DNA from: Paludibacter jiangxiensis
GTDB lineage: Bacteria > Bacteroidota > Bacteroidia > Bacteroidales > Paludibacteraceae
NCBI GenBank assembly: GCA_945870155.1
Contig: CAMBSB010000015.1
Coordinates: forward strand, 1-55,794
Direction of reading: 5' to 3'
DNA length: 55,794 bases
The notes beneath the pieces were generated by a model. That model ran no database searches. It saw only the letters and a list, made by a program, of their open reading frames with translations, and was not told the origin of the DNA. Of this stretch, positions 12,735 through 14,929 are shown piece after piece (position 1 is the first letter of the stretch; every line of letters begins with the position of its first letter). A program made the position numbers and the translations under genes.

Positions 12735-12770
12735 AACTTTTCCAAAGTTTCTTTATACTTTGGAAAAGTT
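12735..12770. repeat. REP-like palindrome, array-cas2 gap
   Basis: Perfect 14-bp inverted repeat: AACTTTTCCAAAGT (12735-12748) and ACTTTGGAAAAGTT (12757-12770), 8-nt loop. First of five related palindromes in the cas region. Confidence 0.9.
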
Positions 12771-12850
12771 TGGTTTTTGTAAAAGTAAAGATTTATTTTT
12801 TGCAAAGTTTTAGCTGCAAAAGTTTGTTTAATACAGCAAAGCTAATTTAT

Positions 12851-13183
12851 TTAAAATAATTCCAATTGTTGGCAGGGTGTTGAAACTGATTTTACTTTTT
12901 TACCCTGAAATAATTCCATTTGCCCGAATTGTTTATCAGTTATACAAAGTACTCCAACATTTCCGGCTTCGGGCAGAAAAGCTTTTACTCGTTTGATATG
13001 TACATCGGCATTTTCGCGGCTTGGGCAATGGCGCAGATAGATAGAGAATTGAAACATGGTAAAACCATCGGTTACCAGCTTTTTGCGGAAATCGGTGTAT
13101 GCCTTCTTCTCTTTTTTTGTTTCGGTTGGCAAATCGAATAATACCAATACCCACATAATTCTATACTCGCTAAATCGTTCCAT
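12851..13183 (-). CDS. cas2: CRISPR-associated endonuclease Cas2
   Basis: This 110-residue ferredoxin-fold protein is the structural partner of Cas1 in the spacer integration complex. The first beta strand [11 protein letters not shown] carries the conserved Asp17, and [19 protein letters not shown] is the usual central segment of type II Cas2. Length is typical. It is the last gene of the leftward cas operon, 51 nt after cas1, with a palindrome in that gap. Confidence 0.96.
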
Positions 13184-13196
13184 TATCTTATGACTA

Positions 13197-13230
13197 ACTT
13201 TAGCAAAGTTGAAAGAAACTTTGCTAAAGT
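13197..13230. repeat. REP-like palindrome, cas2-cas1 gap
   Basis: ACTTTAGCAAAGTT (13197-13210) and AACTTTGCTAAAGT (13217-13230), 14-bp stem, 6-nt loop. Relative to the first copy the stem centre is changed (TCC to AGC) and the other arm is changed to match. Confidence 0.9.
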
Positions 13231-13234
13231 GTGA

Positions 13235-14152
13235 TTAAATAAATCCCGGATAAGCAATTTTCCGGCTCTCGCCTAAGTAACATTTTGCTAGCGAAGCAGT
13301 TGTATATCCAACGGCTATCATGAGCGGACTTCGCTGATTATTAATATTGACATCCAAAACCGGTATGCTTAGTAACCGGGCTTTTATTGGTTTCGATAAT
13401 TCAGATAAATCTTCGCCACTTTCCATTATTTCCACTACCAGTTTATCTACAAATGGCCTATAGGGTTCCATAATGTCATCGGCCAAACAGTATGCGTTAT
13501 AACGGTTATGATGGTGAATTCCCAATGTTGGCAATAAACCACTTGCCACCAACGAGCGGGCAACTACTGCGCGAAGTATTGCGTAACCATAATTCAGTAA
13601 GTTGTTTGGAGGAACTCCTTCACGCCCTCTTCTGAAATCAGGAATGTCAGGAAACATATTTGCCCAATAATAGGCTGCTGCACGTGCTTCAATGTTATCT
13701 GTATCGCCACTTTTTACAGCGTCTACCCAAGCGAACATGTTTTTGACAACTACTTTGCGGGTTTTGTGTAAAACATAAGCCTGATTTTCTATTTTGCTTT
13801 GAATAGTTTGTTGCCAAAGTTGTTTGGTGAGTGGAAGTGATGCATCAATTTGAGCCTGAAAACGTTCGCTCTGTGTGGTGTTTCCACTTAGCGGAAGCAT
13901 CAGCCCTACCGGCATTCGACTGCTATCACAGGTAATTACAGCAGCATTATTTGCCAGTAAAGCTTCCAATAGACCGTGGGTGATCGTAATTTGTTTATGG
14001 TCGAGCACTACCACTCCAATGTCTTCGATAGGGATTGTGTTATTTCCAGCCCGATCTTCCATGCCATTACCATCGGGCAAATGAATAACCAACTGCGAAT
14101 TTCGCATACTCAAATAAGCCGGGTTTCCAAAATAAAGCGTGCGTTTAATCAT
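13235..14152 (-). CDS. cas1: CRISPR-associated endonuclease Cas1 (type II)
   Basis: This 305-residue integrase inserts new spacers into the array with Cas2. The metal-binding residues of the family are visible: Glu155 in NIEARAAAYYW, His214 in LGIHHHNRYNAY and Glu229 in DDIMEPYRPFVDK. The opening MIKRTLYFGNPAYLS and the overall pattern are those of the subtype II (NMENI) Cas1. Length is normal, with no frameshift. It lies downstream of the RAYT gene and upstream of cas2; no cas4 or csn2 is present, which fits subtype II-C. Confidence 0.98.
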   Translation of the reverse strand: MIKRTLYFGNPAYLSMRNSQLVIHLPDGNGMEDRAGNNTIPIEDIGVVVLDHKQITITHGLLEALLANNAAVITCDSSRMPVGLMLPLSGNTTQSERFQAQIDASLPLTKQLWQQTIQSKIENQAYVLHKTRKVVVKNMFAWVDAVKSGDTDNIEARAAAYYWANMFPDIPDFRRGREGVPPNNLLNYGYAILRAVVARSLVASGLLPTLGIHHHNRYNAYCLADDIMEPYRPFVDKLVVEIMESGEDLSELSKPIKARLLSIPVLDVNINNQRSPLMIAVGYTTASLAKCYLGESRKIAYPGFI

Positions 14153-14176
14153 AGCGACAAGTATTATGGTTTTCCT

Positions 14177-14210
14177 TACTTTTCCAAAGTTTCTTTTGAC
14201 TTTGGAAAAG
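14177..14210. repeat. REP-like palindrome, cas1-RAYT gap
   Basis: ACTTTTCCAAAGT (14177-14189) and ACTTTGGAAAAGT (14198-14210), 13-bp stem, 8-nt loop. Same stem sequence as the array-cas2 copy. Confidence 0.9.
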
Positions 14211-14223
14211 TTAAGCTAGGAAA

Positions 14224-14880
14224 TTAGGGTGCTTCCAGTTCGGTTGATTGATTAAATTTATCAAGGTTTTGTTTATGAAAATCTACGAAATGCTCCTTAG
14301 ATTTGAATACTGCTAATAGTTTATTTACGTCTATAACTTCACTCCTGCGTTCTGAGATTTCGCAATACGAAGTATAACTCCAATCGGTATATCGATTACA
14401 AAAACCATGATGCACAGGATTGCGGTGTGTATAAACAACTGCATTCAAGAAATACTCCTTATCAAGTATTACTTCCCGCCTAAAATTCTTAATAAACAAA
14501 GACCCCATGCGTTTATACATTCGGTTGAACGATTGAGTGTAACTACTAAATAAATTGGAGAATTGCTTCGAAAGATATTTTTCAATATCGCCATCACTAA
14601 CATTTACCTCCTCCCTAACTTTCCCAAAGTCGAAAGAAACTTTGGGAAAGTTGTATTTATTTCTAATCAACTCTTCGATAACTTCTTTACGCCGAATCCG
14701 TACTACCAAATGGAAATGATTGGGCAGCAAACAGTATGCATAGGTTTCGGCAATGGGAGCTATATACAGTTTATATTTATCGAGGAAAAAACGATAATTC
14801 TCATCCTCGCTAAATATATTCTCAAACCCATTGGCGTGATTGAAGATATGATAGCTCAGGTTTGGAATCAATTTTTCCAT
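14224..14880 (-). CDS. REP-associated tyrosine transposase (Y1/HUH) inside the cas operon
   Basis: This 218-residue protein looks like the RAYT branch of the IS200-type transposases, single-strand endonucleases that act on REP hairpins. The HUH motif is His55-Phe-His57 in LLPNHFHLVV, preceded by YHIFNHANGFENIF. The probable nucleophile is Tyr114 in SSYTQSFNRMYKRMGSLF. Residues 77-88 (NFPKVSFDFGKV) are encoded exactly by one of the local palindromes. It lies between cas9 and cas1 in the same direction, with 60-71 nt gaps that also hold palindromes, so it is likely co-transcribed. No terminal inverted repeats or target duplications mark it as a separate insertion. It may be a resident REP element or a domesticated gene. 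Confidence 0.85.
   Translation of the reverse strand: MEKLIPNLSYHIFNHANGFENIFSEDENYRFFLDKYKLYIAPIAETYAYCLLPNHFHLVVRIRRKEVIEELIRNKYNFPKVSFDFGKVREEVNVSDGDIEKYLSKQFSNLFSSYTQSFNRMYKRMGSLFIKNFRREVILDKEYFLNAVVYTHRNPVHHGFCNRYTDWSYTSYCEISERRSEVIDVNKLLAVFKSKEHFVDFHKQNLDKFNQSTELEAP
14617..14652. repeat. REP-like palindrome inside the RAYT coding sequence
   Basis: AACTTTCCCAAAGT (14617-14630) and ACTTTGGGAAAGTT (14639-14652), perfect 14-bp stem, 8-nt loop. It is 36 nt, exactly 12 codons (residues 77-88), so the reading frame is kept. Confidence 0.92.
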
Positions 14881-14900
14881 AGCTGTTTTGGTTTGGTAAC

Positions 14901-14929
14901 CTTTTCCAAAGTTTAGACCTTTGGAAAAG
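14901..14929. repeat. REP-like palindrome, RAYT-cas9 gap
   Basis: CTTTTCCAAAG (14901-14911) and CTTTGGAAAAG (14919-14929), 11-bp stem, 7-nt loop. It is the shortest of the five and has a different loop. Confidence 0.85.

Follow-up and report, generated by a model that had tools for sequence, protein, structure and literature searches.

The 55,794-nucleotide stretch of Paludibacter jiangxiensis DNA analyzed here (GenBank assembly GCA_945870155.1, contig CAMBSB010000015.1, positions 1 to 55,794 of the forward strand; hereafter, the window) carries a type II CRISPR-Cas operon in which a gene for a repetitive extragenic palindrome (REP)-associated tyrosine transposase (RAYT) stands between cas9 and cas1, together with five REP-like palindromes. 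Our main finding is that a REP-RAYT element (REPtron) whose own gene contains a REP hairpin has probably been taken up as a gene into type II cas operons of Bacteroidota; that the element in the window is itself a REP-RAYT element is close to certain. Direct support comes from the anatomy of the element, its conserved neighborhood, gap hairpins that occur with the RAYT and rarely without it, a hairpin sequence that tracks the RAYT type, and the occurrence of several RAYT clades in one setting.

All five palindromes are perfect inverted repeats. They occupy the array-cas2 gap (12735..12770; stem of 14 bases, loop of 8), the cas1-cas2 gap (13197..13230; stem 14, loop 6), the RAYT-cas1 gap (14178..14211; stem 13, loop 8), the RAYT reading frame itself (14617..14652; codons 77-88, NFPKVSFDFGKV; stem 14, loop 8) and the cas9-RAYT gap (14901..14929; stem 11, loop 7). 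A sequence-only reading of the window had placed inverted repeats with stems of 11-14 in each of these gaps and inside the RAYT gene; every one was recovered, with a single start moved from 14177 to 14178, and the gene coordinates agree with this siting. Each arm contains CTTTNNNAAAG, with the middle triplet TCC/GGA in three palindromes (array-cas2, RAYT-cas1 and cas9-RAYT gaps), AGC/GCT in the cas1-cas2 gap and CCC/GGG inside the RAYT gene. The facing arms match in five of five cases, as the same reading had described for changes in the core triplet, and its account of mostly AAAGAA-like loops holds for four of the five, which contain or overlap AAAGAA/TTCTTT—the exception being the palindrome at 14901. 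Its statement that the palindromes occur nowhere else in the window was upheld by a scan for the double motif CTTTNNNAAAG(loop)CTTTNNNAAAG, which returned no further site beyond the five. The double motif also had no occurrence in 100 copies of the window generated by an order-2 Markov model, and chance palindromes were ruled out on these two results. The window also contains 14 other, unrelated inverted repeats with arms of at least 10 bases; in 10 order-1 Markov copies the number was 0-5. When the operon's coding strand is folded as RNA, each of the five forms one hairpin of -15.9 to -20.5 kcal/mol, a stability equalled by 0 of 200 shuffles in every case.

The RAYT gene (14224..14880, reverse strand) encodes a RAYT/TnpA_REP-like HUH-Y1 protein of 218 amino acids (aa), in which the HUH and tyrosine motifs read NHFH and YTHRNP. 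Across 30 aligned RAYT sequences, H54 and Y149 are conserved in at least 90%, and H56 and N153 are invariant. The structure of the REP-bound RAYT (TnpA_REP) 4er8 was the sole PDB profile match at 0.01 (E = 1.4e-6) and also the best Foldseek match of an AlphaFold2 model of the protein (3.4e-7, target template modeling score of 0.71; mean predicted local distance difference test score, pLDDT, of 90). This model contains a single segment of at least three residues with pLDDT below 50, at residues 78-87, overlapping the codons of the in-frame palindrome. The protein scored 50.3 bits against the NCBIfam model NF047646 (REP_Tyr_transpos), short of the cut-off of 80, and neither Pfam at 0.001 nor PHROGs yielded a family assignment. 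By our own motif patterns, a HUH-like site is present in 38 and a tyrosine pattern in 35 of the 41 listed loci with a RAYT upstream of cas1. We also observed a second RAYT in the same genome (L014, G000:C6:76102-76713; 38% identity), which carries its own in-frame palindrome of another type plus a flanking copy. Distant RAYTs of loci L206, L221 and L226 (27-28% identity) fill the same slot upstream of cas1, and in L206 and L226 the motif YIHQNP is similar to the one printed for RAYT subclass 2.6 in the published sections used here.

According to the sections of Quentin et al. 2018 (PMC6006769) drawn on here, the in-frame insertion of REPs, usually between HuH and Y, is unique to RAYT subclass 2.4, and the in-frame palindrome of the window lies at precisely such a position, between H54 and Y149. 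Its stem of 14 exceeds every value among 1000 synonymous shuffles of the window gene (maximum 13, mean 7.0); 20 shuffles per gene were used for the RAYT set. Palindromes with stems of at least 11 within 60 aa after the HUH motif occur in 50 of 90 RAYT frames of at least 150 aa. In near relatives the palindrome is translated as NFSKV..NFGKV, others contain the same palindrome in another frame (TFPKF.TLEKL), and some RAYTs carry a different internal palindrome (LPGFQNLAGL). Moreover, in 23 of 23 frames chosen by motif pattern, the third base of the glycine codon in the second arm complements the first base of the facing codon (equalled by 5 of 20000 permutations)—a matching that relatedness or hairpin-templated correction could also explain.

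Throughout the genome (5.79 Mb in 339 contigs), 13 double-motif sites were found: five within 2.2 kb of the cas operon (four in cas gaps and one in the RAYT gene) and eight elsewhere, all of the latter outside any open reading frame (ORF) of at least 80 aa. The sites form a REP-like family of low copy number that is densest at the cas operon without being confined to cas genes. Within the family, it was detected in 57 of 358 genomes; the pattern used does not demand matching arms and its reversed control matches some genomes (0-4 sites each), so lone hits are possibly chance. The expectation that the palindromes are not scattered in high number across the genome held for P. jiangxiensis, with only eight other copies, and less well for one relative with up to 22 sites. 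Six of the eight copies elsewhere follow a left-hand ORF that ends 8-39 bases ahead, and this placement, along with the absence of all eight from ORFs, is what ordinary intrinsic terminators lying next to a RAYT by coincidence might look like. Against such an explanation, one palindrome lies inside a reading frame, gap hairpins accompany the RAYT (see below), and a separate GC-rich, terminator-like inverted repeat (AAAATCCCGC..GCGGGATTTT) is present at 12698-12724, past cas2. Many RAYT-less loci have counterparts of the latter behind cas2, so it resembles the usual signal at the end of the operon or array, and the idea that the five palindromes are plain terminators was rejected on this ground. 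With the Markov copies speaking against chance as well, we regard terminators or chance palindromes beside a coincidental RAYT as extremely improbable.

The neighborhood of the RAYT gene was examined at two levels. In the family search (the same 358 genomes), 10 of 12 RAYTs at 59% identity or more adjoin cas genes; among the 17 at 42% or less, one is clearly beside cas (L040) and the neighbor in L037 is a weak cas1-like match (24%). A class search over an even draw of 395 genomes gave 65 RAYT places outside the own genome, the neighborhoods of which were all searched (some being cut by contig ends), and 20 of the 65 have cas genes like those of the window alongside. The 20 include repeats of one gene and come to about 18 distinct after merging by reading: L276 and L307 are one gene, L291 and L311 are two ends of one gene, and L303 holds a second RAYT of the L261 locus. 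When 96 RAYT loci were compared, the commonest neighbor families were Cas9 upstream (32), Cas2 (29) and Cas1 (19), and the frames of these three lie on the strand of the RAYT in 80 of 80 cases; other families appear in at most 8 of the 96 loci, the largest of them being frames antiparallel in cas-adjacent loci. In 7 of the 41 listed loci, the RAYT and cas1 frames share 4 or 8 bases. In our tree, 24 of the 29 rows in the clade of the window RAYT are cas-adjacent, and other clades contain cas-adjacent RAYTs too; hence, judging from these sequences, the setting would most simply have arisen more than once. A single insertion was rejected because the starred branches require the cas-adjacent label to have been gained or lost at least nine times (14 times on the tree itself, the bootstrap not having settled), although one gain followed by many losses would strictly still be compatible.

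These data bear directly on the possibility that the cas operon is a safe harbor for a passenger—a tolerated, horizontally moving site in which local spread leaves gap hairpins as neutral by-products that play no part in CRISPR. Consistent with this idea, the RAYT is an optional gene in the family: of the 61 type II loci taken from the family and the window, 50 lack it, with one unassigned (the family set comprising 60 of 93 cas1 places outside the own genome). The cas9-cas1 stretch also holds other accessory ORFs, and several RAYT clades share the same setting. One such ORF, of 173 aa, recurs upstream of cas1 in L055, L067, L200, L201 and L221 (upstream of the RAYT in loci that have one), and in other loci the space between cas9 and cas1 is filled by ORFs of 228-386 aa. 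Additionally, across 26 loci, RAYT distance does not track Cas9 distance (Spearman -0.10). The shared strand of all 80 cas neighbor frames and the overlap of the RAYT frame with cas1 in seven loci argue in the opposite direction, as does the codon pattern: between the RAYTs of the window and L049, change is greater at third positions (0.372) than at first (0.151) or second (0.096) ones, as for a maintained protein. On balance, a mere safe harbor is a tenable but somewhat less than probable account, and the chances that residency beside cas genes has been selected are about even. In the same 26 loci, RAYT distance follows that of Cas2 (Spearman 0.37; 1 of 2000 permutations) and, weakly, that of Cas1 (0.23; 69 of 2000). 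Loci L054, L057 and L059 have Cas1 proteins 82-88% identical to that of the window but Cas9 proteins only 28-30% identical, the values for L057 being 88% and 28%. The effector Cas9 is thus exchanged, with the RAYT tending to stay with the adaptation genes cas1-cas2.

Returning to the reading of a REP-RAYT element established in the operon, its clearest signature is the co-occurrence of gap hairpins with the gene. Of the 39 RAYT-bearing type II loci, 14 have CTTT-type (REP-type) hairpins in their cas gaps, versus 1 of 50 RAYT-less ones (Fisher, 2e-5); for repeats of any type the numbers are 16 of 39 versus 8 of 50 (p = 0.015). This count omits four duplicates (L053, L188, L189 and L191) and L091, leaves L106 and L208 unassigned, and carries a seeding bias, as 32 of the 39 RAYT-bearing loci come from a scan seeded with the window RAYT; the rest (window plus family loci, n = 58) comprises 7 loci with a RAYT (4 with a gap repeat), 50 without (8 with one) and 1 unassigned. 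Among the eight RAYT-less loci with a gap repeat, five share one unrelated palindrome, two have other sequences and one, L190, is REP-like: this locus of the same genus contains a perfect ACTTATCC-type hairpin in the cas9-cas1 gap and a decayed one in the cas1-cas2 gap. A common palindrome, TTTCAGTTGTACG..CGTACAACTGAAA, was observed between cas9 and cas1 in the RAYT-less loci L210, L211, L220, L222 and L224, from two genera. Where palindromes occur both inside and around the gene, they resemble each other: over 29 RAYT loci, internal-to-flanking similarity is 0.88 versus 0.70 when shuffled (maximum 0.776 of 500 shuffles), suggesting that hairpin type usually follows RAYT type. The proposal of the sequence-only reading that a local REP-RAYT element had become established in the CRISPR operon is borne out by both the gap counts and this correspondence. 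Its expectation that related loci with a RAYT should keep the palindromes was borne out in part, given that most RAYT-bearing cas loci keep some, often solely inside the RAYT gene, and some have none at the stem lengths used.

Among relatives, a palindrome or near-palindrome lies in the cas1-cas2 gap of L049, L051, L054, L057 and L059, and in L049, L051, L057 and L059 it is kept though the surrounding bases differ. The RAYT-cas1 gap contains one in L049, L051, L055, L056, L200 and others, and L051 has a palindrome after cas2 as well, like the window. Over the part of L049 that its contig covers, there is one hairpin per gap, and the first of them overlaps the end of the cas9 frame. In the RAYT-cas1 gap of L059, the left arm and loop occur in three tandem copies followed by one right arm; this tandem arm is a trace of how such hairpins change.

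Five further loci, L314 to L318, were inspected as well. In L314, with the gene order cas9-cas1-RAYT-cas2, a AACCCTGTCAG-type hairpin occupies all three gaps and one more lies inside the RAYT gene; the gene frames confirm the gaps, and the RAYT frame is uninterrupted. This locus, distant and with a hairpin unrelated to that of the window, independently repeats the layout of one hairpin per gap plus one in the RAYT gene. L315 (9818-12575) has two RAYTs in one cas operon, one before cas1 with CTTTCCG-type hairpins and one between cas1 and cas2 with CCCTGACAGG-type hairpins. Furthermore, L316 has a palindrome inside its cas1 match (5904-5936), matching in type a palindrome inside the neighboring RAYT, L317 has one gap hairpin, and L318 has a hairpin inside the RAYT alone. 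A TGA flagged inside the match of genome G411, the RAYT of L314, is the end of that 217-codon frame and was read as its normal stop.

Besides the predominance of RAYT-less loci noted above, several observations weigh against an established REP-RAYT element. Canonical REPs have a GT[AG]G foot; none was present within 8 bases of the stem of any of the five window hairpins, on either strand. Gap hairpins are absent at stem 10 from 23 of the 39 RAYT-bearing cas loci, and 40 of the 90 RAYT frames have no stem-11 palindrome within 60 aa after the HUH motif. Flanking and internal hairpins differ in type in L112 and L115. The motif persists in genomes with no RAYT match at E of 1e-20 or less, namely G271 (21 sites) and G252 (15 sites). 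Finally, NHFH is replaced by NYFH in L051 and by NHIY in L226, so that these RAYTs may have lost cleavage; L051 still has hairpins.

According to the explanation we propose, the RAYT would be a relative of HUH-Y1 single-strand DNA nucleases with cognate sites in the hairpins of its own frame, around its gene and between the cas genes. It would bind these hairpins as single-stranded DNA and could have seeded the operon copies by short-range transfer, as proposed for TnpA_REP. If the operon is one transcript from cas9 to cas2, each copy would fold as an intergenic mRNA hairpin, most likely altering 3' decay and processing instead of ending transcription, and we consider an effect on cas mRNA an evenly balanced proposition. 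The suggestion of the sequence-only reading that the hairpins control mRNA stability or the expression of each cas gene would be one form of such an effect, favored so far by the stable RNA folds. A more elaborate version would have the RAYT bind hairpins in its own mRNA or DNA and tune the operon by autogenous control, with the hairpins selected as sites. The presence of one hairpin per gap in the window, in L314 and, up to the contig end, in L049 fits such a regulatory system, as do the cas1-cas2 gap hairpins or near-hairpins retained amid differing surroundings and the matched arm changes in 23 of 23 RAYT frames. However, template-switch correction of quasi-palindromes can also produce matched arms, and, to our knowledge, RNA binding by RAYTs is not established. 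Per-gap hairpins are not essential, because the RAYT-cas1 gap is too short for one in loci such as L061, L063, L070 and L073. Autogenous control is doubtful.

The preference for adaptation genes raises a further possibility, in which the RAYT acts as a single-strand nuclease or ligase partner of Cas1-Cas2 and the hairpins merely mark its genomic origin. The RAYT adjoins cas1 or cas2 in both gene orders, and its distances track Cas2 and, weakly, Cas1 but not Cas9, as a helper of adaptation might. This correlation is possibly due to host descent alone, most of the type II loci taken from the family manage without a RAYT, and we know of no role of a RAYT in spacer uptake. A helper of this kind is quite improbable.

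Comparison with known systems separates what is familiar from what is new. The IS200/IS605 TnpA is the partner of IscB, the ancestor of Cas9. Like that TnpA, the window protein is a Y1 HUH enzyme of a kind that recognizes hairpins, and its structure matches 2xo6 and 2vjv; unlike it, the RAYT adjoins cas1 or cas2 with Cas9 exchanged independently, and the fold match is weaker than that to 4er8. With E. coli REPs and the REP-bound RAYT structure 4er8 it shares the fold and mostly intergenic hairpins, but the copies are few (13 sites), densest at their own operon and built on the arm pattern given above. The element also resembles subclass 2.4. In the sections of PMC6006769 used here, members of that subclass have HUH and Y motifs, REP-like hairpins on the flanks of the gene and in-frame ones placed in a variable peripheral region between HuH and Y, with Bacteroidetes among the carriers; set against that description, the window hairpins have no GT[AG]G foot and the RAYT resides in a cas operon. 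The word CRISPR does not occur in the main text of PMC6006769, a RAYT-cas association goes unmentioned in the passages of PMC10309648 and PMC10910872 consulted, and no report of a recurrent RAYT in type II cas operons with cognate gap hairpins was found in our searches, which covered open-license PMC papers. By the measure of those papers, RAYTs, REPs and in-frame REPs are already known, and the RAYT with its hairpins in a cas-operon setting appears to be new.

The remaining genes of the locus, all on the reverse strand, qualify it, together with an array, as a type II CRISPR-Cas operon. They are cas2 (12851..13183; Pfam PF09827, 4e-17; TIGR01573, 4.1e-21), cas1 of type II (13235..14152; TIGR03639, 310.7 bits) and cas9 (Csn1; 14941..19413; TIGR01865, 1.1e-120). 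The array lies at 9960-12621, with 35 exact repeats, the last ending at 12621. Outside the array, the best anti-repeat-like stretch (local score 19) lies a short way upstream of the cas9 start, at 19515-19538, and is a candidate for the putative trans-activating CRISPR RNA.

RAYTs are called domesticated transposases, and they lack a settled job. Their recurrent, same-strand residence by cas1 or cas2 with cognate hairpins offers a concrete context for testing a host function, with natural comparisons at hand in L190 (hairpins left, RAYT absent) and L315 (two RAYTs). At its boldest, and we think this unlikely, RAYTs would have been repeatedly recruited as true accessory genes of type II adaptation modules, either acting on single-stranded DNA with Cas1-Cas2 or gating operon expression via a self-encoded hairpin code in coevolution with the enzyme. 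CRISPR biology gains a candidate accessory gene, one that could readily be written off as a transposase, and even if the cas operon were a safe harbor alone, the finding would still show the persistence of a hairpin-based element in a defense operon.

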